The translations under genes and the position numbers were made by a program. DNA of 28,473 nt from IMG/VR virus record IMGVR_UViG_3300043436_002316, positions 1-28,473 of that record. The stretch is one strand, 5' to 3'. The DNA is from a virus. Positions 6,111-16,689 of the stretch are shown one piece after another. The stretch's first letter is position 1. Each line of letters opens with the position of its first letter. The notes below the pieces were generated by a model. It searched no databases, was not told the origin of the DNA, and saw only the letters and a program-made list of their open reading frames with translations.

Positions 6111-6402
6111 TTAATCGAACTAACGCTATTAAATCAATTGTCATTAATAATAGATAGTTGGACAACATACCAAAGCTGCCACGAGTCCAGCTAGCCCAAG
6201 TAAAAATAGCACACTGAACAATGAACAATGGGTATAAAATAAAAAATGGTGGATGCGGCAAAGTGATGCCCATCCAGGCAGCACATATAATACTCATTAC
6301 CCAAGCAGTAATTTCTAGTGTGAAACGGACAGGATGTGATTCAAAGTCTGCCCGCATCCAATCTTGTGTTGAGCGTAGCCACCCACCAAATGCTCCTATC
6401 AC
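6097..6402 (-). CDS. Small membrane protein, about three transmembrane segments
   Basis: This 101-residue protein starts with an amphipathic stretch (GGWLRSTQDWMRADFESHP). Hydrophobic segments follow at about 26-46, 51-69 and 79-99, so it should be an inner-membrane protein. From memory, similar proteins occur beside dsbA-type genes in marine T4-like phages, with no known function. The start is GTG (6400-6402), overlapping the dsbA stop as GTGA, which indicates coupled translation. Its 3' end overlaps the convergent SGNH-like gene. It lacks holin hallmarks, and a better holin candidate lies in the lysis block. Possible roles in superinfection exclusion or membrane attachment of replication are speculation. 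Confidence 0.7.
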   Translation of the reverse strand: MIGAFGGWLRSTQDWMRADFESHPVRFTLEITAWVMSIICAAWMGITLPHPPFFILYPLFIVQCAIFTWASWTRGSFGMLSNYLLLMTIDLIALVRLIIVS

Positions 6403-6659
6403 AGAGTACGACCCACAGTTTCTAGAATTGTATTCAATTCTTCGTGATCGGCATTAGTGTCGCCTAGCTTAGATTTCTGTGCAATCTTAATGGCTTTTTT
6501 CAAAATGGCTGGTTTAATTTCCATTTCTTCTGCAACGGCCTTAACAGTATCGTTAAGTCCTGCATTTAGATCTTCGATTTCTTGCAATACACCCACACCC
6601 TCATTGATAATCTGAGTAAGTTTGGCTTTTTGTTCTGAACTGAACATACGTGCTGACAT
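6399..6659 (-). CDS. dsbA: DsbA-like double-stranded DNA-binding protein (late transcription)
   Basis: This 86-residue, mostly helical protein matches the T4 DsbA type in length (T4 DsbA is 89 residues). Its characteristic central stretch runs GLNDTVKAVAEEMEIKPAIL followed by KKAIKIAQKSK, with an N-terminal helix containing QKAKLTQIINEGVGVLQEIEDL. T4 DsbA binds dsDNA near late promoters and is not the disulfide oxidoreductase of the same name. The start ATG 6659 has AGGAG at suitable spacing, and a sigma70-like promoter lies just upstream. Its stop is coupled to the membrane protein gene. Identification is from remembered family sequence patterns and length. Confidence 0.72.
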   Translation of the reverse strand: MSARMFSSEQKAKLTQIINEGVGVLQEIEDLNAGLNDTVKAVAEEMEIKPAILKKAIKIAQKSKLGDTNADHEELNTILETVGRTL

Positions 6660-6682
6660 AGTAACTCCTAGTTGAAAAATAC

Positions 6683-6710
6683 ATTATACACTACTTATTT
6701 GAAATAACAA
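6683..6710 (-). promoter_or_regulatory. Sigma70-like promoter of dsbA
   Basis: On the minus strand, TTGTTA (6710-6705), a 16-bp spacer and TATAAT (6688-6683). It lies just upstream of the AGGAG and ATG of dsbA. The -35 match is weaker than at the other promoters of this type in the window. Confidence 0.65.
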
Positions 6711-6732
6711 GAGCAATTGATAAAAGTCCCGC

Positions 6733-6798
6733 TTACTTTATACGGGGCACACCACGCGGTGCAGTGAAATCTCGCGGACGCCTATACCGTTCCGTCAA
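6733..6798 (-). CDS. Possible 21-aa basic peptide
   Basis: TTG at 6798 opens 21 codons ending at TAA 6733. AGGA lies 5 nt before the TTG. The peptide is strongly basic (TERYRRPRDFTAPRGVPRIK after the start). The region is richer in G and C than its surroundings, and the arginine codons look like real coding. It could also be the continuation of the previous tiny ORF in another frame. The 6660-6886 stretch holds only this ORF, the one at 6819-6887 and the dsbA promoter. Confidence 0.3.
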   Translation of the reverse strand: MTERYRRPRDFTAPRGVPRIK

Positions 6799-6818
6799 AC
6801 GGATCCTAAGGTGGATTC

Positions 6819-6887
6819 TTATGTTGGTGCGTATGGATTACGTTTATAGTCGCTGTCTACCGGCAACTCAGGGTAAACAGGATACAT
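6819..6887 (-). CDS. Possible 22-aa peptide coupled to the lipoprotein gene
   Basis: ATG 6887-6885 overlaps the TAA of the lipoprotein gene (TAATG), the same coupling used at the polymerase/methyltransferase junction. AAGGA lies about 10 nt before the ATG. The frame codes for 22 residues beginning MYPVYPELPVDSDYKRNPYA, Pro/Tyr-rich like the lipoprotein before it. No function is known. A frameshift could once have joined it to the basic peptide downstream. Confidence 0.4.
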   Translation of the reverse strand: MYPVYPELPVDSDYKRNPYAPT

Positions 6888-7126
6888 TATCTACAGGTCC
6901 TTACACTATGGTAAGATCCATTGTATCTATTATGTCGTGTTTCGTAGTAGCAATATGGTCTGCGTGGCGGAACTACATAAACTGGACGTGGTTGAATATA
7001 AACAGGACGTGGTTGAATATAAACAGGTGCCGGTGATACGTAAATTGGACGTGGTTGAACGTACATTGGATCATATACTGCGCATCCAGACAGCAATAAT
7101 AAAGGTATTAAAATTAATTTTTTCAT
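6887..7126 (-). CDS. Small Pro/Tyr-repeat lipoprotein
   Basis: This 79-residue protein starts with a lipoprotein signal, MKKLILIPLLLLSGCAVYDP. The lipobox is LSGC, so the mature protein would begin at Cys15 and be acylated. The middle is a heptad-like repeat of PxYxxPR type (PRPIYVSPAPVYIQPRPVYI and on). The C-terminus has a short segment, rich in Tyr, His and Arg, with two cysteines. Asp is not at +2 (Ala is), so outer-membrane sorting is likely in a Gram-negative host. ATG 7126 overlaps the metallopeptidase stop (ATGA). Short phage lipoproteins of this kind can block receptors or superinfecting phage, but that is only a possibility here. Confidence 0.75.
   Translation of the reverse strand: MKKLILIPLLLLSGCAVYDPMYVQPRPIYVSPAPVYIQPRPVYIQPRPVYVVPPRRPYCYYETRHNRYNGSYHSVRTCR
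6984..7067 (-). repeat. 21-bp tandem repeat inside the lipoprotein gene
   Basis: Two identical 21-bp units (6984-7004 and 7005-7025) begin GGACGTGGTTGAATATAAAC on the plus strand. A diverged unit (7026-7046) and a partly matching fourth (7047-7067) follow. The period is 7 codons, so copy-number changes would keep the frame. Confidence 0.85.
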
Positions 7127-8031
7127 TTCTTTTTCCCTTGGCGCATATTAATTTGCCAGTGTGCTAATTGTTTCTTTCTTGAGCTAGCTGTGTCGCTGCT
7201 ACGAATTTTCTTTAATTGTGCTATAGTAACACCCTTGGGTATGCCGTGTCTACGACTATCGCCTTTATCTTGCGGATTCTTTCCATCTGCAAAGTTTTCT
7301 TCTAGAGCATCTTCTTTGCTATGATTATAGTGACGCATTATAATGCCAGCTTCGCTGTTAGCTTCATTTTCTTCTGAACTGCCAGTCTCGCCCGATTTGT
7401 CGTTTATTCGCCCATCGAGTTCTTGTTTATAGTGTACTAGTTCGTGTGCTAGTGTTCGGAATACATCATTTTGATGCCTGCCTGCAATAACTACTTCAAT
7501 TTTTCCGTTAGTATAATGCCCAAATGTATTCTCAAGAGAGTTTTGTAGAAATTTAATTTCTGGCAATTGATCTAGCTCTAGATATTCTTTTACAAAATCT
7601 AAGAATTCATTTATCTTATCTTTGGATATTTGATCCTCAGTTATAGGACCACCTACTACCCAAGCATCGCAGGTTCTTAGACTTGCACATTTAAATTTCA
7701 AGAACTTGCAGTATCCTAAATCGCCTGCTTCAATTGTTGAGGCTGGATCATTGTCACTGCCAATACCCTGTGCTATACACTTGAGCATTTCTTCACTCTT
7801 GTCAAACGCTGCACAATTACCACAAAGGCTTTTCTTGGCTTCGCTAACATCGTCTAATTGCCACATTTGTACTTTTTTTGCCCAAAACTTTTCGTTAGGC
7901 TCCAGTGGATTTAGTGGACCGTACCCTTGTTCATTGATGGCCTTTTGGCGATTTTTAATATTAATATTAATGTCTTGGGTTGCCAATGGGCACTTTTTAG
8001 CGGCCTCGATTAAAAAATCTTTAGCTCTCAT
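7123..8031 (-). CDS. Zinc metallopeptidase with N-terminal cysteine-cluster domain
   Basis: I chose ATG 8031 (302 residues), 2 nt after the stop of the previous gene; a longer frame to 8103 would run into that gene. The N-terminus MRAKDFLIEA resembles T4 capsid-targeting peptides, with LIE|A as a possible prohead-protease site. Cysteines at 70, 73, 85, 108, 115 and 121 form a metal-site-like cluster. C70xxC73xxF, GYC108xxF and C121DAW recall high-potential iron-sulfur proteins, though a zinc site is equally possible. The peptidase motif is HELVH (196-200), with a third-ligand Glu probably in EENEANSEAG (220-229). The C-terminal tail RHGIPK...AHWQINMR (261-296) looks like a separate conserved module. 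Location and substrate are unknown. The gene ends coupled to the lipoprotein. Confidence 0.75.
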   Translation of the reverse strand: MRAKDFLIEAAKKCPLATQDININIKNRQKAINEQGYGPLNPLEPNEKFWAKKVQMWQLDDVSEAKKSLCGNCAAFDKSEEMLKCIAQGIGSDNDPASTIEAGDLGYCKFLKFKCASLRTCDAWVVGGPITEDQISKDKINEFLDFVKEYLELDQLPEIKFLQNSLENTFGHYTNGKIEVVIAGRHQNDVFRTLAHELVHYKQELDGRINDKSGETGSSEENEANSEAGIIMRHYNHSKEDALEENFADGKNPQDKGDSRRHGIPKGVTIAQLKKIRSSDTASSRKKQLAHWQINMRQGKKK

Positions 8032-8033
8032 AA

Positions 8034-10628
8034 TTATCTCATTACCGGTACAACTGATATTTCGGTCATATCGGAGTCCCTGGGTCCATTTTGTTGTAGC
8101 CACTGCGATGCTACTCGGTTAGCATCACGTTGACTGTTGCCAATGCCGCCAAATGTATACAATACTTGGTTGGTGTCACCGTCGCGTATTTCCCATTGGC
8201 CAGTGAACTCATTGCCAGCAGCTGGGAAATTCTGAGGTTCCGACACAATTGGTGAACCACTGTCCCAACTGGCTGGTGGTTCCTGGAAGTTCTGTGCTAT
8301 GTCAATGCCAATGTCTGGTATTGATGTACCACTAGGAGCAGCACGTAATTCTTCAGGAGACAATGACGCTATACTGTCCAAATAAACTGATCTACGTTCA
8401 ATACCACGTGCGGTAGTCCAACGACGAGCAGCTTCGATTGCGTCTCCGGTGGTTCCGGCAGAGAATCTATACAGTACAGGGCCTACACCTTCGTTGCCTT
8501 CTCTACGTCTCAGCACAAAATTGCCACGAGGATCGTCTGGTACTGGTGCGTTGAGTTGATCAGTTGCCGGAGTCTGTGTGGCCGGTGTGCTATCTGCTGG
8601 CCCCAGTGGTGTTGCTGACCAGCCTCGAGCACGATAAAAAGCTTCTGGTGTGTCGGACGTGGATGTGTTTAAATTCCAGCGGCTTCTGGCCTGATCCATA
8701 GCTTCCAGCTCAGTGTCCGCTTCTACTTCAATGCCCTGAGATTGATAAGGTGATTCGCTGGAACCTTTGACTAACCATTTGAGTTTTCCGCTGCCTGGCG
8801 CAACTGGTACTGCTCTGTACGCATCATCGGGATTCATAGTATCGTTGTATTCTTGTTTGGCCAATTTGATGGCTTCTTCTGCTGATGCGGCCATGAGTGT
8901 GATGGTGGCACGTCCATTGGGATGAGTCACTCGCCACTGAATCTTTTCTTTGGGTGGATTTTTAGCAACTTCACGACCGTACTGTAGCTGTTTAAGAAAA
9001 CCTTTGAGTGCTGACTTAGGCAACTCGCCAGCAACATAACGACTGAATATACTGATAGCATCGTTGTCTGCACCGGGCAAGACTTCTGTACGCTTGGTAC
9101 CAGTACGGGGATCCACAGTCTGTTGTGTTTTAACATCGGTTAGCATCTTGTACAGTTTCTTGGCATATTCTGCTTTTTCGGCTGCGGGATCCATGGCAAT
9201 GTTAGTGGCACGAGCATAACGTAAGAGTGTATTCTGTATCTTGTCCATATCCTCGAAGTAGTTGCTGCCGCCTGCTGAACGGAATTCAATATAGTTGGTC
9301 TTGGGATTGATTGATGTATATTTGCCAAATCCTGACGGCTGTGCTAATGCCCGCGACGCAAATTGATTTAAATGTTTACGCATAGTACCAAGAACTTCTT
9401 CGACATTAACCTTGCCTTTCTTTTCGCGAATTTTGCTGACAGCACTCTTGGCATAAGTATTGGCTTCTCTACCAAACTGTTGCAACACATATTCGTCGCC
9501 TAAGAACAAGGCCAATTTGGTATAATCTAATAGATCAGATCCATGGTCTGGCATACTAACACTCATATGGAAGCCAGTTGAGCTGTTGGCGTATGCGCCA
9601 TTGTCTTCAGCCCACTCAAAAAACTTAGGCAAGATTTCCAATGTCTGACTAAGCGGCATTGGGGGACTAACGATCTCCACAGGCATATTACCGGGCTCGT
9701 CTCCATCTAAGCTGCCATCTGGTTCAAAGATCCAAGTCGTATCGTCACGTCGAGCTGAATGATACCCAGATGCCACTGTGGTTTTAACCCCCAGGGCCTT
9801 GCTCAAGCTACTGGCCAAATCTCCAGCTGCTTCGGGATCGTATCCATCTTCACTGCTGTTACCGGTGGTGGTCCAGTGGGGCCATTCAAAGTCAAAATTG
9901 TTGCCAACATCGCTCATATAACGCCAACCACGAGCTCTTAACCAATCGCTTTCATCAGCGAATTGGTAGGAGTTTTCGCGAAATTCTTCTAATGCTGAGT
10001 CGTAATCACTGTTTTGTTCTTCTATGGCATCTGTGACACGCAGTTCTAACTGTTCTTTTACTCCGAGTTGGGCTTCATTGTATTTCTCAACTAACTCAGC
10101 ATCGGCAGCAGTTCCTTTTCCTGCCACACGTCGTTCCATGGCTGCGTCGACTTCGCGAATTTCATCAGCAGTCAGTTCTAGTTCGTCCTTGAGATATTCT
10201 TCAATCTGACGGTCTTCGTTCCAGTCGTTTTCTACAATCCAGTTTTCGATGAGGGTTTGCTGCTCATCCGTCCATTCTGTATGTATTTGCTCGTCGTGCC
10301 ATTCAAACCAATCTTGTTCTAATTCACTGCGGTGCATTTGATAACTGCGGGATCTGGGATTGCTGTCGATACCGGCCATGTCTCCGTTACTAAAGAAATA
10401 CATGATCCCGTCAATGTCGTCTGCACGTTGATCCTGCTCGTAGTCGGGCTCCATTTCACCACTGTCGTCGCTGTTGCCATTAACACCAGTGAACACCAAC
10501 TCAGCTTCAAAGCCGGCCATCATACCTTTGGCAGCAGGACTGGCAGCAAATTGTCGTAGGTTACTTGGGCCCATACGAATTTCGTTTAGCGTGTCTTCGG
10601 GTAATATACGAATTTCATTATATCTCAT
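8034..10628 (-). CDS. Amidoligase-like protein with four C-terminal repeats
   Basis: This 864-residue protein has the layout of the amidoligase (COOH-NH2 ligase, glutamine-synthetase-like fold) family. GFEAE (39-43) lies near the start, WIFEPDGSL (299-307) and EIVSPP (318-323) follow, STGFHMSVS (350-358) has the family His, and YIEFRSAGG (446-454) closes the domain. A long acidic helical insertion (about 100-230) separates the first motif from the rest. Family members ligate amino acids or polyamines to carboxyl groups; the substrate here is unknown. The C-terminus carries four related units of about 50-60 residues (near 563-608, 616-675, 703-752 and 810-863), each a W/L-x-V strand followed by an A-rich helix, joined by Pro/Ala/Thr linkers. 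ATG overlaps the previous stop (ATGA). Confidence 0.65.
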   Translation of the reverse strand: MRYNEIRILPEDTLNEIRMGPSNLRQFAASPAAKGMMAGFEAELVFTGVNGNSDDSGEMEPDYEQDQRADDIDGIMYFFSNGDMAGIDSNPRSRSYQMHRSELEQDWFEWHDEQIHTEWTDEQQTLIENWIVENDWNEDRQIEEYLKDELELTADEIREVDAAMERRVAGKGTAADAELVEKYNEAQLGVKEQLELRVTDAIEEQNSDYDSALEEFRENSYQFADESDWLRARGWRYMSDVGNNFDFEWPHWTTTGNSSEDGYDPEAAGDLASSLSKALGVKTTVASGYHSARRDDTTWIFEPDGSLDGDEPGNMPVEIVSPPMPLSQTLEILPKFFEWAEDNGAYANSSTGFHMSVSMPDHGSDLLDYTKLALFLGDEYVLQQFGREANTYAKSAVSKIREKKGKVNVEEVLGTMRKHLNQFASRALAQPSGFGKYTSINPKTNYIEFRSAGGSNYFEDMDKIQNTLLRYARATNIAMDPAAEKAEYAKKLYKMLTDVKTQQTVDPRTGTKRTEVLPGADNDAISIFSRYVAGELPKSALKGFLKQLQYGREVAKNPPKEKIQWRVTHPNGRATITLMAASAEEAIKLAKQEYNDTMNPDDAYRAVPVAPGSGKLKWLVKGSSESPYQSQGIEVEADTELEAMDQARSRWNLNTSTSDTPEAFYRARGWSATPLGPADSTPATQTPATDQLNAPVPDDPRGNFVLRRREGNEGVGPVLYRFSAGTTGDAIEAARRWTTARGIERRSVYLDSIASLSPEELRAAPSGTSIPDIGIDIAQNFQEPPASWDSGSPIVSEPQNFPAAGNEFTGQWEIRDGDTNQVLYTFGGIGNSQRDANRVASQWLQQNGPRDSDMTEISVVPVMR

Positions 10629-11320
10629 ATGCTTAATTCTCTATCTTGTTTTCTAATGTACTCAGTATTTAATTGATTTATATACCCAAGGTTACGTAAA
10701 ACTTTAAATGCTAAATTTTCTGTTCCGAATTCCCCAGCATTGTCTAGGCCAGAGCGACGCATTTTTCTAATTTTTGTCATTAGACGTTTAATATCGTCGG
10801 CATCATTGGATTCAATTGCTGAATTAATTTGTTTAATTAAGCCGTTGACTTTTTGATTTATGGCAGTATCGTTAATGCCGGGAGGATTATACTCGGGCTT
10901 TTTAATCCATTTATCGTCTAATAGACTATACATACCTGCACTAACTGGCGGTTGTTCTATGTCTTCGACATATAGTTCTGCTTCGTGTCCGTGTATGGTA
11001 ATGTCGTGCGTGTCATTCCATATCTTTTTCTTGGCCTGATAAAATGCTTCGGCTAGATCATCGCATTGTAAGTTGCTATACTTGGTTACTATATGTAGAT
11101 CAAAATCTGAGAATTTAGTCCAGTTGTAATTGGCCATACTGCCAGTTAGTACCACATCTAACACTTGAAAATTTGGAATTTCTAAATAGCCAACAAACTT
11201 CTTTGCTATTTGTAATAATTTAATTTGTACGTCGGGACGTAAGATTCCGTTATCCCACGTAATGGGACTTAAGGTTTCGTGGTAAGCAATATTGCCCCGT
11301 ACATAATCGTTTGCTTTCAT
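10625..11320 (-). CDS. Nucleotidyltransferase-fold protein
   Basis: This 231-residue protein has the pol-beta-type nucleotidyltransferase signature: LTGSMANYNWTKFSDFDLHI, with GS at 60-61 and the metal-binding acids at D72 and D74. The third acid is probably in the HEAELYVED segment. The C-terminal third is helical and basic. The family transfers NMPs to proteins, RNA or small molecules, including the MNT toxin-antitoxin partners, but no HEPN partner lies beside it. It sits between Dps and the amidoligase with ATGA overlaps on both sides, so the three genes are translated together. No prohead-protease-like site is obvious at its N-terminus. Confidence 0.75.
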   Translation of the reverse strand: MKANDYVRGNIAYHETLSPITWDNGILRPDVQIKLLQIAKKFVGYLEIPNFQVLDVVLTGSMANYNWTKFSDFDLHIVTKYSNLQCDDLAEAFYQAKKKIWNDTHDITIHGHEAELYVEDIEQPPVSAGMYSLLDDKWIKKPEYNPPGINDTAINQKVNGLIKQINSAIESNDADDIKRLMTKIRKMRRSGLDNAGEFGTENLAFKVLRNLGYINQLNTEYIRKQDRELSI

Positions 11321-11751
11321 TTTGCAGTAGCACGTAACATCCAGCTATGCTTTCTGTAAGCATCCATACGATCGGCAATAAAGCTACTAAACCCGTGCTC
11401 GCCGTTAACTTCGGCAATGTCGTACACACGCTTTAATACTTTAACCATATTATCTGAATCTTGCAATAATTCCAACACCATTTGTTCTGCTGGAGGTACA
11501 CTAGTTTCGTCTTCGATTATACTTAACATACTAAAACGGCTGTTTGATCCGGGTGCATATGCACCTAGCGCACGTATTTTTTCTGCAAAAGTATCAATGT
11601 TGCCGTAGACTTCTTCGTAAATTGTGCCAAACAAATCGTGTAGCTCTTGAAAGAACATTCCTTCCACATTCCAGTGAAAGTACTGCGCCTTCAAATAAAA
11701 AGTATATTCGCTGGCAAAGGCTATTTTAGCCGCTTTAACTAATTCGTTCAT
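11317..11751 (-). CDS. dps: Dps-like ferritin-family protein
   Basis: This 144-residue protein fits the Dps/miniferritin family, which forms 12-mers that oxidise and store iron and often protect DNA. The core motif is YFHWNVEGMFFQELHDLF, and D53 and E57 follow at the ferroxidase spacing, ahead of RALG. The last helix contains DRMDAYRKHSWMLRA. Against the E. coli Dps ferroxidase set (H51, H63, D67, D78, E82), the equivalents are H26, H38, Gly42, D53 and E57, so one acidic ligand is missing. The N-terminus is short, without a lysine-rich DNA-binding tail. It sits in an operon with putative head proteins (ATGA overlaps on both sides). It may protect phage DNA or act on host iron; this is inference. 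Confidence 0.88.
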   Translation of the reverse strand: MNELVKAAKIAFASEYTFYLKAQYFHWNVEGMFFQELHDLFGTIYEEVYGNIDTFAEKIRALGAYAPGSNSRFSMLSIIEDETSVPPAEQMVLELLQDSDNMVKVLKRVYDIAEVNGEHGFSSFIADRMDAYRKHSWMLRATAK

Positions 11752-14306
11752 ATATCGTATCCTGCTCTGCGCATTTCTGCTAATCTATACTCAATTAATC
11801 TATTTAGGCGACGATCTTCAACGCTTTCGTTTGACCATTGATTGTTTTCGCTGCTCCAGGCATTTTGTCCATCGTGCCAGCTATCTTCGTCAACACCTTT
11901 TGTCTTTCTTTCAGCAGCACCACGTGCAGCTAGTCGTTTGCCTAGGGCTGTTAATTGTTCTTTGGACCACTTCTCGTCCTTGTGCTTGGCGGCCATTTTT
12001 GCTAGTGCATTCTGAACAGCAGGGGTATCCATTTCGTTGCGTTCGGCTTCTACAGCAACAACAGGTTTAACTGTAGGGCGAGTGTTGGCATTCTTACCAC
12101 TGATAGTACTGGCTTTCCCACCTCGAAGTGTACCAATGTGTTTACTTCCTAAACTAGTTCCGGGGTAACGCGGGCCTTTATTTGGTTTAACTTGGGTAAT
12201 TGCGCCACCACGTGCTAAGAAGTCATTGACGTCATCTTCTTTAACTGACTGTTCGCCGATTTGTGCTAAGAATTTACTTGCTGGATCAACTTCTATAGTA
12301 TCGTCTACCATACCGGGAATAGATTTCCAAGTTGGAACATATACTGTGGCTGCTGTACCATCCACAGCAATAACTTCTGCCGGTTGACCTTTATACAGTA
12401 CTTGAGCGCCGATGTTGACCACATCCATGATGCCTTCTGCTACATCTTTACTCTGACTTTGAAGATGATCAGCAAGCGTCTGTGCTGCTTGCTGTGGATT
12501 TACTTCATACATGTCTAATAAATCAGTTAGTGGATCGTTGGATGAATCATTACTTTCCATGTCAAACTCAGCAGCAATAGTTTCATATGCATCAAAATAA
12601 TCATCGTCGTCTTCAGGATCAAATTGATCAAGATATGCTCGTGCGTCCTTAAGCATTTCTAGTGCAGCAGGAATCGAAACGTTATTTCTTGCTTCTGTGA
12701 CACCTTTATCATCATAGCTGCCAATTTCTGTTTCAGCATGCTCCTGGGCGTCGTCCAATGTGCGGAACCATTGCGGAGCAATTTGCCCCTTCATCTGTCC
12801 TGTGCCACGTGCTGTGTACCGTCCCTTACCGGTGTTAAAATATACATTATACTCTGCGCCGCGATGTTCTAATCGGTTGGCATCACTGTGACCTGCTTCT
12901 GCCACATCTTTTTGTTTGTCCCATTCTTTGTCAGTTTTAACATTGTATTCTTTGCCGCCTGCGCCAATATCACTGACTCTAGTACCAATTGATTTATTGG
13001 TTTTAACTACAGCAGGATTTCTAAATGCACCAGTCGGTGCTCTACGACCGCCTTTTTCCCAACTTACTTCTTCGTCGCCGTACATGCTGCCTTCCGCCAC
13101 ACCCTGTTCTGCAACATCTGATTGTAGCTCTGATGCTGGCCAGCTGATGTAGCTCTTGCCGTGCTCGTCGCCGGACATTACCACAAATACACCAGGCTCA
13201 TCTTCGTAGCCTTCGTCCTGTCCAATTTCCCAACCAGCTGCCATTAGCACTTGTTCTACCCGAGGATCTTCGTCACCCTGATACCATTTGGCAGCCAACT
13301 GTCGTAGTGTGTCCTCATCAAATCCATCATCACCATCATCGCCACCACCTGAATCGCTGGGTGCGAATTCTGTTAAACGGCCTTCTGAGATAGCCGACTT
13401 TAACTCTGCTAGTGCTTCCGCTGCTGTATCGAATCCCACGGCATCGTAACTACCGTCGTACAGTTTGACATAATACTGACCATTGCCGGGACTGGCTTCG
13501 GCGTCGATACCAATCTCGCCAATAGGCTTGCCGCCCTTCTTTACAACACGTATTGTTTTGTCGCCCCGATGACGCATAACATCTGGTTTACCAGCTTCCG
13601 CTACACCTCGAATTGCGGGACTTAAATTACCACGCTTGGCTTGTTCCAAGTCCCGGGTGCCGTGAATTTCAGCATCATACTTTTCAGCCCAGACATTCAA
13701 TTGATCCACGTTCTTAAAAGTCTTATGCCAAGTCTTACGATCCATGCCACGAACACCGTGTGCTTCAATGGTGTGACCTTGAGCAGTCTCAGCCACGTCT
13801 TGGTCAATGACTAAACGCAATGCTGTGCCGGGTATGTTGTTTGCCTGGCCGCCATCGTCTAAATCAATGTAATAACTTTTTGCGGCACCTTTGAATGAGC
13901 CATGTTTAATTTCTCTGATCCATCCAGTTTTGCCTGCATCGGGGCCTTTGACAATCTTTACCTTCTTGGCCAATCCCTTGCCTTCCGCCACACCTTCGTC
14001 ATAATGATTGGGCTGTGCTTCACGTTCGGCCTGACCCGATTCCCACTGTGCATATTCTTTAGTGTCTTTCTTGTAAGGATTAAAATCATAGCCTGGTCGA
14101 GCACTCCACCCCTGCTCATAAGGATCGTTTTTGTCTGGGCCGATGCCCTCTTCAACTGGCACACAATTGTTTACACGTACACCACCTTTAACTTTAGTTT
14201 TAGGGTTACCAATTTTTTTACCTTTCCAGCACTTAGGGTCTAGTCTGGTCTTGGTTGCTTTTGCTTCATCGATAGTTAATGGAGCGACTATGTCGTGTAA
14301 AAACAT
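11748..14306 (-). CDS. Modular protein with repeated prohead-protease-like sites (putative head polyprotein)
   Basis: I do not recognise this 852-residue protein as a whole. [VI]-x-E followed by G or A occurs after residues 14 (IDE), 53 (VEE), 108, 237, 308 (ISE), 405, 470, 538 (VTE) and 624, with further VAE at 173 (then T) and 400. T4 gp21 cleaves at (L/I)xE before A/G, so these look like processing sites between small domains. Segments include a basic Cys-containing module (15-53), an RMF-like stretch with QGW, NPY and W88 (54-108), SH3/KOW-like modules (109-173 and 625 on), two related modules (238-308 and 471-538) and acidic spacers (309-405, 539-624). The N-terminus, up to IDEA, resembles a capsid-targeting peptide. 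TAATG and ATGA couple it to its neighbours. Confidence 0.6.
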   Translation of the reverse strand: MFLHDIVAPLTIDEAKATKTRLDPKCWKGKKIGNPKTKVKGGVRVNNCVPVEEGIGPDKNDPYEQGWSARPGYDFNPYKKDTKEYAQWESGQAEREAQPNHYDEGVAEGKGLAKKVKIVKGPDAGKTGWIREIKHGSFKGAAKSYYIDLDDGGQANNIPGTALRLVIDQDVAETAQGHTIEAHGVRGMDRKTWHKTFKNVDQLNVWAEKYDAEIHGTRDLEQAKRGNLSPAIRGVAEAGKPDVMRHRGDKTIRVVKKGGKPIGEIGIDAEASPGNGQYYVKLYDGSYDAVGFDTAAEALAELKSAISEGRLTEFAPSDSGGGDDGDDGFDEDTLRQLAAKWYQGDEDPRVEQVLMAAGWEIGQDEGYEDEPGVFVVMSGDEHGKSYISWPASELQSDVAEQGVAEGSMYGDEEVSWEKGGRRAPTGAFRNPAVVKTNKSIGTRVSDIGAGGKEYNVKTDKEWDKQKDVAEAGHSDANRLEHRGAEYNVYFNTGKGRYTARGTGQMKGQIAPQWFRTLDDAQEHAETEIGSYDDKGVTEARNNVSIPAALEMLKDARAYLDQFDPEDDDDYFDAYETIAAEFDMESNDSSNDPLTDLLDMYEVNPQQAAQTLADHLQSQSKDVAEGIMDVVNIGAQVLYKGQPAEVIAVDGTAATVYVPTWKSIPGMVDDTIEVDPASKFLAQIGEQSVKEDDVNDFLARGGAITQVKPNKGPRYPGTSLGSKHIGTLRGGKASTISGKNANTRPTVKPVVAVEAERNEMDTPAVQNALAKMAAKHKDEKWSKEQLTALGKRLAARGAAERKTKGVDEDSWHDGQNAWSSENNQWSNESVEDRRLNRLIEYRLAEMRRAGYDI

Positions 14307-14842
14307 TATTGGGTTCCACCTTGTTTAGTTTTTCTAATTAGTGCTGTTAGAGCGTTAATTGTATTCGGGTCGCCCTGGTCAATTAACTGTCCTAATTCTT
14401 GGCCCATACCAGTAGTAATTTTCATATCGGTTGGATTTTTTGGTTCAGTGGGGTCTTTAGTTAGAGATTTAGCAGCTTGGCCGATACTTGGAATATTTAC
14501 TCCAGCCGACTTTAATTTGTTTAAGGCATCTTGTGTATTTTTAATTTCTGCTGCTTGTGTAGCTGGATCTTCTTTGTCGGCAGCATTTGCAGTGCCCGCT
14601 GTGCTGGTGTTGGATGCACCAAATTCTGCCAAATAGGATTCCCACCCTTCTCTTATTTCTTTTTCAATACCCTCATTTGCTCCTACTAAGCGTCCTTTAA
14701 ACGGATGCTCGCCAGATTTTTTAGGGGTGGCCTTTTCTGTTCCGCGCACTTGATCCCCAGGTTTCTGTCCAACTCTTTGTCCAGCAAACTTATTGCCCTC
14801 ATTGAGGTTGTTTAAAGTTTGTAATATTTTATAAATGTCCAT
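14306..14842 (-). CDS. Putative head/scaffold-type protein, unknown
   Basis: This 178-residue hydrophilic protein is not a family I recognise. The N-terminus, MDIYKILQTLNNLNEGNK, ends in LNE|G, a match to the T4 prohead-protease consensus. A second NE|G occurs in VGANEGIEKE. The region after this site is basic and Gly/Lys-rich. A low-complexity Ala/Thr stretch follows, then a helical C-terminal half (TQAAEIKNTQDALNKLKS and on to KTKQGGTQ). TAATG junctions on both sides tie it to the RMF-like protein and the modular protein. The combination of N-terminal site, helical content and position suggests a head core or internal protein; that is inference from context. Confidence 0.5.
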   Translation of the reverse strand: MDIYKILQTLNNLNEGNKFAGQRVGQKPGDQVRGTEKATPKKSGEHPFKGRLVGANEGIEKEIREGWESYLAEFGASNTSTAGTANAADKEDPATQAAEIKNTQDALNKLKSAGVNIPSIGQAAKSLTKDPTEPKNPTDMKITTGMGQELGQLIDQGDPNTINALTALIRKTKQGGTQ

Positions 14843-15453
14843 TATTTCTTAACCTTAACTGGACCGCCTCGTGTTTGCATATTGCTATAACCTTGCTGTT
14901 TTTTACGCAATTCTTTTTGAGACATTCCGCCACTTAGTTCCCCAACAACTGCGGCCACTGAACCTGCGCTACTAGCACCTGCACTGGCATTTTCTGCTAG
15001 TTGCTTTGCGCCTGCTCCAAGTCCTTTAACCCAATCTCTGGATTCTGGTGATCCATAATCATATGGATTATTACCTTCTGATAATCCACGAACGCCCGAC
15101 TGAAAGCCTTGTTTAAATGCCGCAGGAATTGATTCTGTTACTTCTAATTCGATTAGTTTATTATATCTGCTCTCAGCAATATCTTCAGAAAATGCCGGTA
15201 GTTGGTCTCTCTTGCCCATTTCGTGTTGGCTAACAATATAATCCATAACACCAACTAACATTGATTTTGCTACAGCAATCTTTTCTTGAGCCCACTCGGG
15301 GAAGTTTTCATTGCTACCAGTGGCTTTATCGAGTCCCTTGGCTACACGTACAATTGTGTGTAGATTATTCTTAATCATACCAGCTTCGTCGTTGTATTCG
15401 TACTGATCAACTGACTCGTTAACTGTTTTGTTGATAAAATCGTTTGTTTTCAT
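14842..15453 (-). CDS. Protein with RMF-like segment and prohead-protease-like sites
   Basis: This 203-residue protein is unknown as a whole. Sites of the [LIV]xE|[SG] type are VNE|S near residue 13, IAE|S, VTE|S and LSE|G. The segment AFKQGFQSGVRGLSEG followed by NPYDYGSPESRDWVKG keeps the layout of ribosome modulation factor: a Gly-rich helix, a Pro-Tyr centre and a Trp-Gly helix. E. coli RMF dimerises 70S ribosomes into inactive 100S. A helical module with PEWAQEKIAVAKSML comes before it, and the C-terminus is Ala/Gly/Ser-rich then basic. The start ATG 15453 has CTGGAA upstream, and an AATAAATA late-type promoter lies 22 nt before it. The function call is speculative; the processing motifs are visible. 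Confidence 0.5.
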   Translation of the reverse strand: MKTNDFINKTVNESVDQYEYNDEAGMIKNNLHTIVRVAKGLDKATGSNENFPEWAQEKIAVAKSMLVGVMDYIVSQHEMGKRDQLPAFSEDIAESRYNKLIELEVTESIPAAFKQGFQSGVRGLSEGNNPYDYGSPESRDWVKGLGAGAKQLAENASAGASSAGSVAAVVGELSGGMSQKELRKKQQGYSNMQTRGGPVKVKK

Positions 15454-15756: not shown

Positions 15757-16689
15757 TTATTTGCCACCTTTTATTAGGTGCATTGCCTTCATATTCTTTG
15801 CCGGGGTATCGGGGTGTACATCTACAGTTAGACTGGTTTTGTATCTAGGATCATTCTTTTGCTTTGCTGTGGCAATTTGTCCCACTCCAGCAGCTTCTTC
15901 GGATATTTTGTTATTTCTAACTTGATCCTTTAGTGCAATAATTTCATCACGTAACTGTGCAAGTTCGGTGATTATATTTGCACGGCTTTCTGCTAGCTCG
16001 CCGGCGGCCTTGGGCATCTTAGGAGATTTATTAGGTTTAGGTGCCGGCGCAGCCGGGGTTGGTGCAGCAGATAGTTTGCTGTTCATTATTTGTTCAGCTT
16101 CTTGTGTATATTTGCCAAACAAGTCACCTACTATAGCCTGTCTTGTTTTTTCGTCAGCAGCTTTATATTGGGCTCTAAGCTCACTTGCAGACTGCATAGG
16201 TTTACCTAGTACGCTAAACTGAAAAGTTGGTACTGTTAATATGTAACCGTGTTGGTCCATATTCTCGGTTTGCTTGATATCTTTTAGTGGTTGAAAATAT
16301 GGTGGAGTACCGTCTTTCTTGGGAGCAAAACTAAAACGAGGATCTTCGGCCATATCCTTTTCGCTGACTGCAAAAATGACTACAGTATTAGCAGGATTAG
16401 CTATAGGAATTTGTCCCGACGCCAGTACGTTTTGAATATTATAAGGTTGTGTTGATTGAATAATCCTGTCACTAGGAACCCCGGTAAGCTGCATAAAATA
16501 TGCTTTTTCTGAGAAACTAAAAGGGGATTTTTCGTTGTCTGTTTTATTACTAGTAGCAATAAAAACGTTATTACGGCCAAATTTGGTTGTTAACCATTCA
16601 TATACTGCGTGATGGCCTTTATGAAAGGGTTGAAATCTTCCGGGGTATATTACAAGTAGTTGTGATTCGGCTAATTCGGAAATAAACAT
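15757..16689 (-). CDS. HxGH nucleotidylyltransferase with processed-looking ends
   Basis: This 310-residue protein has a cytidylyltransferase-like (NMN/FMN adenylyltransferase-type) domain: YPGRFQPFHKGH with HKGH at 23-26, a central Rossmann region, and SASELRAQ (167-174) in place of the usual ISSTxxR. It could make NAD or activate another small molecule with ATP or CTP. The N-terminus, MFISELAES, ends in LAE|S, and the same LAE|S recurs at 232-235. There a Pro/Ala/Lys linker (207-230) separates the enzyme from a coiled-coil region and a C-terminal module (DPRYKTSLTVDVHPDTPAKN). Both sites resemble prohead-protease cuts, so the enzyme could be packaged and released from its tail. The start ATG lies in a hairpin. 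Confidence 0.7.
   Translation of the reverse strand: MFISELAESQLLVIYPGRFQPFHKGHHAVYEWLTTKFGRNNVFIATSNKTDNEKSPFSFSEKAYFMQLTGVPSDRIIQSTQPYNIQNVLASGQIPIANPANTVVIFAVSEKDMAEDPRFSFAPKKDGTPPYFQPLKDIKQTENMDQHGYILTVPTFQFSVLGKPMQSASELRAQYKAADEKTRQAIVGDLFGKYTQEAEQIMNSKLSAAPTPAAPAPKPNKSPKMPKAAGELAESRANIITELAQLRDEIIALKDQVRNNKISEEAAGVGQIATAKQKNDPRYKTSLTVDVHPDTPAKNMKAMHLIKGGK

Follow-up and report, generated by a model that had tools for sequence, protein, structure and literature searches.

The prohead protease gp21 of bacteriophage T4 cuts after L/I-x-E, breaking the core proteins into many fragments, most of which exit the head, and trimming Alt and the internal proteins (IPs) at their ends; IPIII carries a ten-residue capsid-targeting sequence (CTS) (PMC9026906). 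Polyvalent proteins, which are multidomain, mosaic, thought to be delivered with the DNA and proposed to release their domains by proteolysis, carry an embedded peptidase domain (MPTase) (PMC5512222). SPN3US/phiKZ head proteins are ejection cargo of giant phages and are cut C-terminal to Glu by gp245/gp175 (PMC10052503, PMC5694885), a cut position that we also propose here for an 852-aa protein, P0001. Its gene lies in a 28,473-base IMG/VR fragment of a T4-like phage (IMGVR_UViG_3300043436_002316; the whole fragment is referred to as the window). Judging from sequence, it is likely that P0001 is a capsid-targeted head-cargo polyprotein that the prohead protease would cleave in trans, yielding exchangeable cargo. 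We favor this reading because P0001 begins with a putative targeting propeptide, its joints lie at module edges, modules are exchanged at these joints, and relatives have both the protease and virion-associated proteins of this class.

P0001 shares features with each of these systems. Like T4 IPI, IPII, IPIII and Alt, all processed by gp21, it has a short N-terminal, putatively targeting propeptide, candidate [hydrophobic]-x-Glu cut sites, a probable role as head cargo and, in its relatives, a gp21-type protease; the T4 genes each yield one mature protein, whereas P0001 has about 10 internal sites, exchangeable modules and mostly Val rather than L/I at P3. It resembles T4 gp22, gp67 and gp68 in having several gp21-type sites per chain and enrichment of the same motif, but these T4 proteins are conserved scaffolds and most of their fragments leave, whereas the P0001 class is built of mosaic modules, several of them folded, that vary in presence and absence. 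As in polyvalent proteins, each chain of the P0001 class has many mosaic domains; however, no MPTase or other known polyvalent domain was found in P0001 (Pfam, PHROGs, NCBIfam) or in 55 relatives (Pfam, PHROGs), and its sites match a prohead protease acting in trans. Nearly all mapped cuts in SPN3US head proteins remove N-terminal propeptides at the motif AxE, unlike the sites in P0001. Each element has a precedent, in the fragmentation of T4 gp22/gp67, in the CTS cargo of T4 and in polyvalent proteins (PMC5512222), but the open-access literature searched yielded no description of a mosaic cargo polyprotein that a prohead protease processes in trans; this is not proof of absence.

An earlier note on this DNA had proposed that P0001 is a head polyprotein divided by prohead-protease-like sites. 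The protein contains [VI]xE before G or A after residues 14, 53, 108, 237, 308, 405, 470, 538 and 624, exactly where that note had placed them. Composition-preserving shuffles gave a mean of 1.57 such sites (maximum 7), with 0 of 5000 reaching nine, and xVAE[GA] was observed 5 times against 0.10 expected. Because the motif was chosen post hoc and the composition-based Poisson P value for the wider pattern [VIL]xE[GAS] in P0001 alone was a modest 0.0023, most of the weight of the evidence comes from relatives. P0001 itself had no match in cultured phage records (tblastn) or PDB sequences; the family-B DNA polymerase of the window is ~51% identical to that of Sinorhizobium phage Phosso and 48% identical to that of Agrobacterium phage Atu_ph07 (both >460 kb). 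Scanning viral contigs with the whole of P0001 and four of its modules yielded a pool of 127 non-redundant module-bearing proteins from uncultured T4-like phages (median length 595 aa, maximum 1488 aa). These proteins contain 587 [VIL]xE[GAS] sites versus 212 expected, compared with 141 versus 211 for an Asp-for-Glu control pattern and ratios of 0.5–1.2 for other controls (spacing changes, aromatic or basic P3, Gln or Lys at P1). The explanation that the sites arise by chance or from the composition of a low-complexity protein rich in Ala, Glu and Gly could draw on the shortness of the motif and on the modest single-protein P value, but is so improbable that we reject it on the shuffles and control patterns; the exact edges in independent copies and the indel edges described below also oppose it.

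The relatives revealed that modules are exchanged at the candidate sites. When P0001 was divided at its sites and the pieces were compared one by one with related proteins (loci numbered L), near end-to-end matches were obtained for modules 2 (residues 2–55), 3 (1–65), 4 (2–64), 5 (2–71), 7 (1–65) and 9 (3–86), and module order varied: the window's 3-4 is 4...3 in L201, and the orders 11-2-6, 7-5 and 6-1 occur in L233, L135 and L243, respectively. At the left edge of module 3, [VI]xE stood exactly at the joint in all 15 non-redundant copies, even though the upstream neighbours differed, and at the right edge of module 7 [VIL]xE was exact in 23 of 31 copies and no more than four residues off in 29, against a background in the same proteins of 1.8% exact and 15% within four residues. 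A site lay ≤4 residues from the right edge of module 6 in 43 of 46 non-redundant copies, and its left edge was L/I/V-x-E↓FAP (the arrow marks the candidate cut) in all copies among the matches listed. Module 1 edges were less clean, with a site within four residues in 18/30 copies on the left and 15/32 on the right, where many copies reach the protein end. With copies aligned by module, not by motif, Glu at P1 and the P3 residue (Val for the most part, with some Ile/Leu) were near-constant and P2 and P1′ variable. Among 28 distinct module indels between related pairs, 61% had [VILM]xE ≤8 residues from both ends, versus 10% under the null (maximum 32% in 500 trials); examples are DEDVSE↓ACWTGYK versus DEDVSE↓[79 aa]↓ACWTGYK (L185/L183) and RGGISE↓ASGYIP versus RGGISE↓[109 aa]↓ASGYIP (L174/L161). 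A cruder test, in which 16.7% of BLAST match ends fell within 5 residues of sites versus 9.2%, was significant but weak and was superseded by the per-module and indel tests. Homologues thus keep the xE junctions while modules are shuffled between them, which supports the division into modules proposed in the earlier note. Its cutting rule needs widening: the nine E↓G/A sites stand, but comparison placed further module edges of P0001 at or near VAE↓T173, LTE↓F313, VAE↓Q400 and VKE↓D690, so that P1′ is not restricted to G/A. The reported spacing of 39–129 residues is altered accordingly, since the 129-residue interval (108–237) holds two modules that meet at VAE↓T173.

Structure predictions were consistent with this division. 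AlphaFold2 models were made of aa 230–480 and aa 100–240, using alignments of module copies; these two sub-regions were folded instead of the whole protein because the full-length 57-row alignment misplaced fragments. Ordered domains were predicted at ~249–310, 326–402 and 112–168, and the predicted local distance difference test (pLDDT) score was <50 at 230–248, 311–325, 403–480, 100–111, 169–184 and most of 215–240, so the tested sites all lie at or beyond domain edges. Confidence was low outside the domains, module 7 lacked a confident fold and module 4 lacked alignment support. As had been anticipated, the segments are predicted to be separate domains, their sites falling either at domain edges or in linkers of low confidence. 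For the module 3 model, the matches were KOW/SH3 domains from Spt5 and from ribosomal proteins (best E 0.009, template-modelling score up to 0.78 on the target), and a Foldseek search with the module 5–6 model returned nothing significant. If only the N-terminal propeptide were removed and the multidomain remainder packaged intact, in the manner of a polyvalent protein, P0001 would follow SPN3US, in which 13 of 14 mapped sites remove N-terminal propeptides (PMC10052503), and the end-trimmed Alt and IPs of T4 (PMC9026906). The retention of internal sites at module edges whatever the context, and in flexible linkers, makes this very improbable.

A subset of joints shares more than an amino acid motif. 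At VAE joints, the P2 Ala codon is GCG in 58% of cases versus 6% elsewhere in the same genes, and the P3 Val codon is GTG in 44% versus 16%. The conserved DNA tract spans ~18 nt with sharp edges (CAAGGTGTGGCGGAAGGC, encoding QGVAEG), suggesting that some joints, at least, spread by copying of the DNA itself. Identical 18-mers are present in at least 120 viral contig stretches (examples include L368, with four copies, L301 and L351), and 101/101 copies examined were in the same reading frame. Joints without VAE do not share the linker. These observations, together with the gain and loss of modules at joints, could mean that joints are kept because CAAGGTGTGGCGGAAGGC is a crossover point, that the multidomain proteins stay intact and that the likeness to protease sites is incidental. 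We regard that explanation as unlikely, because LNE↓FAP, VDE↓G, VSE↓A and ISE↓A junctions keep P3 V/I/L and the P1 Glu without the DNA linker, clean insertions occur at non-linker sites, the linker copies examined keep a single frame, and enrichment of the protease motif extends to gp22, gp21 and N-terminal propeptides, none of which is shuffled. The non-linker joints, gp22 and the propeptides argue that the protease motif would be the more general constraint. We tentatively raise a dual purpose for the joint, in which the ~18-bp in-frame linker would encode a prohead-protease site and also act as a crossover for exchanging cargo cassettes between phages.

The protease presumed by the cargo polyprotein reading is present in relatives that have a head-gene region. 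A member of the S77/gp21 family was encoded in 17 of 18 large relatives containing gp23 (the contig of the exception ends 224 bases from gp23) and in 0 of 8 large records without gp23; the gp21 of L076, for example, lies at 6184-6819. Five head regions have the order portal, acidic core protein, gp21, gp22 and gp23. When all open reading frames (ORFs) of two large relatives (285 and 367 kb) were ranked by motif, the gp22 scaffold showed the top enrichment in both genomes, one tail fibre apart (11 versus 2.0 and 14 versus 2.2 expected), followed by the polyproteins and then, slightly lower, by gp21 itself. V[AR]E↓[GA] was kept in gp22 in 5/5, [LI]xE↓ was kept in gp23 beside the likely mature N terminus, and gp21 kept candidate autocleavage sites at both ends. 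Alternatively, the polyprotein could be additional scaffold or core filler, cut by gp21 like gp22, gp67 and gp68, with fragments that exit and have no delivery role. The exit of most T4 core fragments (PMC9026906), the disordered and acidic nature of some modules and the presence in one polyprotein subfamily of the gp22 C-terminal motif [IL][RK]KL[AS]GL fit such a role, which we nonetheless consider distinctly unlikely: the pool contains folded enzyme- or regulator-like domains (KOW, HicA, GNAT, nucleotidylyltransferase, LysM), and fast module turnover resembles that of adaptive cargo. The C-terminal motif, [IL][RK][KR]L[AS]G[LI], is shared by gp22 (L076–L080), L018, L022, L068, L135 and Phosso XYS97569.1, and is possibly a core-docking signal. 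The idea that LRKLAGL is common to all cargo was rejected, as it marks one subfamily only (4/121).

The N terminus of P0001, MFLHDIVAPLTIDE↓AKATKTRLDPKC, offers a candidate signal for entry into the head. In L006, L008 and L014, the sequence downstream of the P0001 propeptide is preceded by MKSNEFITE↓, MRITEIITE↓ and MKINEILSE↓, respectively. These N termini look like the T4 CTS, MKTYQEFIAE↓A; like the P0001 propeptide, which resembles the CTS of IPIII, they are putative targeting sequences. Of 111 module-bearing ORFs that include a start, 71 had [VILF]xE in the first ~20 residues, versus 193 of 820 ORFs of the two large genomes.

Proteins related to one polyprotein subfamily are found in cultured phages. 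Homologues of the N-terminal ~300 aa of the L018 subfamily occur in Pseudomonas phages PA5oct and MIJ3, Vibrio phage 2.275.O (NVP2275O_003) and Phosso (XYS97569.1, encoded beside the large terminase gene). For the PA5oct homologue, EST35_0206, annotation as a structural protein comes from electrospray ionization tandem mass spectrometry (ESI-MS/MS), which ties the polyprotein class, not P0001 itself, to virions. The Vibrio homologue has nine sites versus 1.6 expected, and the 976-aa Phosso homologue has seven versus 4.0.

Several observations weigh against P0001 being cut into delivered cargo. The gp21/S77 protease gene is absent from the 28-kb window fragment; the enzyme that the earlier note proposed to look for was seen in the relatives described above. 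P3 is Val at most internal sites of P0001, where the T4-type L/I rule does not hold; acceptance of Val would extend the gp21 rule, as the literature gives L/I-x-E, and is suggested by the sites conserved in gp22. With so short a motif, scanning returned a false positive, a tail-fibre-like protein (L078:1284-5138) with the repeat VAEGxNLYFTNARAR, although the P0001 sites stand in other contexts. Modules 8 and 10 had no homologue when searched as separate segments against related loci. Many junctions have the ~18-nt linker in common; the joint may thus double as a site of module recombination, which would give part of the conservation a cause other than the protease. The homologue with mass spectrometric support, that of PA5oct, is only mildly site-enriched (four versus 1.5 expected), nearly all mapped SPN3US sites remove N-terminal propeptides, and by analogy with T4 core fragments the P0001 fragments might be expelled.

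In the cargo polyprotein model, MFLHDIVAPLTIDE↓ would bring the whole chain into the prohead core, as the T4 capsid-targeting sequence does. After shell assembly, the gp21-type S77 protease would cut after the Glu of [V/I/L]-x-E within the flexible linkers, freeing about 10–13 small proteins or peptides, among them the KOW/SH3 domain, the Cys module and the SutA-RBD-like segment. The pieces would remain with the DNA, be ejected into the next host and probably act there on transcription, translation or defence. Phages would swap modules at the joints, which are short and portable and make no difference to the modules they connect. That P0001 is packaged, actually cleaved, kept in the mature head and ejected, and what its pieces do, we infer from the comparisons above.

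Module identities (Table 1) partly matched those first suggested. The Cys-containing (Cys residues 26 and 48), KOW/SH3 and acidic segments were recognized, but the RMF-like module was rejected, as the PF04957 match (E 6e-4, below cut-off) is confined to the neighbouring ORF at 14842–15453, and paired related modules were not supported (modules 5 versus 8, E = 0.33). Module 1 had weak matches in cyanophages. PF20661, the SutA RNA-polymerase-binding-domain (RBD)-like family, was also found in three other copies of module 11, all below the curated cut-off. Across 55 relatives (Pfam/PHROGs), polyproteins contained HicA-toxin, GNAT, LysM and nucleotidylyltransferase domains.

The window region around P0001 is probably a head-cargo cluster, as several neighbouring ORFs have similar N termini or sites. 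The RMF-like ORF shares an ASAGASSAG stretch with PA5oct EST35_0203 (L415:355-1851), a virion protein by ESI-MS/MS annotation, and a domain like that of the ORF with the HELVH motif occurs inside an L021 polyprotein. Just downstream of the polyprotein gene, amidoligase-like and Dps/ferritin-like genes (8034–10628 and 11317–11751) have strict sites in neither.

Table 1. P0001, its modules and neighbouring candidate cargo genes in the window.
Feature	Positions	Strand	Remarks
Polyprotein gene P0001, 852 aa	11748..14306	-	Start at 14306; nine [VI]xE↓G/A sites
Putative capsid-targeting propeptide at the N terminus, MFLHDIVAPLTIDE (aa 1-14); TIDE↓AKAT is the first junction	14265..14306	-	
Module 1 (aa 15-53), CWKGKKIGNPKTKVKGGVRVNNCV Cys module, end PVEE↓G	14148..14264	-	76 matches in related loci
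Module 2 (aa 54-108), end GVAE↓G	13983..14147	-	End-to-end in L233, 69% identity, among other modules
Module 3 (aa 109-173), KOW/SH3 domain, end DVAE↓T	13788..13982	-	PF00467 E 0.0023; Spt5 KOW fold match
Module 4 (aa 174-237), end GVAE↓A	13596..13787	-	End-to-end in L201, 78% identity, there N-terminal to module 3
Module 5 (aa 238-308), end AISE↓G, then LTE↓F at 313	13383..13595	-	In L212, 89% identity; predicted domain aa 249-310
Module 6 (aa 309-405), FAP..GWEIGQDEG domain; edges LTE↓F (313), VAE↓Q (400), VAE↓G (405)	13092..13382	-	Predicted fold aa 326-402
Module 7 (aa 406-470), DKEWDKQK module, end DVAE↓A	12897..13091	-	No confident fold
Module 8 (aa 471-538), end GVTE↓A	12693..12896	-	Homologue not found
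Module 9 (aa 539-624), AYLDQFDPEDDDDY module, end DVAE↓G	12435..12692	-	In L004/L289 (89% identity) between GIEE↓A and GVAE↓G
Module 10 (aa 625-690), end SVKE↓D	12237..12434	-	Homologue not found
Module 11 (aa 691-852), SutA-RBD-like start, C-terminal tail	11748..12236	-	PF20661 E 2e-6 on aa 690-759
Neighbouring ORF, MDIYKILQTLNNLNE↓G..., candidate cargo	14306..14842	-	[VIL]xE[GAS] at 15, 65 versus 0.49 expected
Neighbouring ORF, MKTNDFINKTVNE↓S..., RMF-like, candidate cargo	14842..15453	-	Four sites versus 0.83 expected
Neighbouring ORF, MFISELAE↓S..., nucleotidylyltransferase, candidate cargo	15757..16689	-	PF01467 E 7e-8; site at residue 8
ORF, CTS-like MRAKDFLIE↓A start, HELVH metallopeptidase motif, candidate cargo	7123..8031	-	Start codon inferred

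If this reading is correct, jumbo T4-like phages of natural waters would load sets of interchangeable proteins by means of one targeting signal and the head protease, using a delivery polyprotein analogous to the polyproteins of RNA viruses. In-silico cutting at [VIL]xE joints would then be a simple sequence rule by which hundreds of unknown injected phage effectors could be found, and would account for many mosaic proteins now called hypothetical. The shared DNA linker makes the mechanism of domain shuffling in phages directly testable, and the class as a whole would represent a modular route for loading proteins into T4-type capsids.

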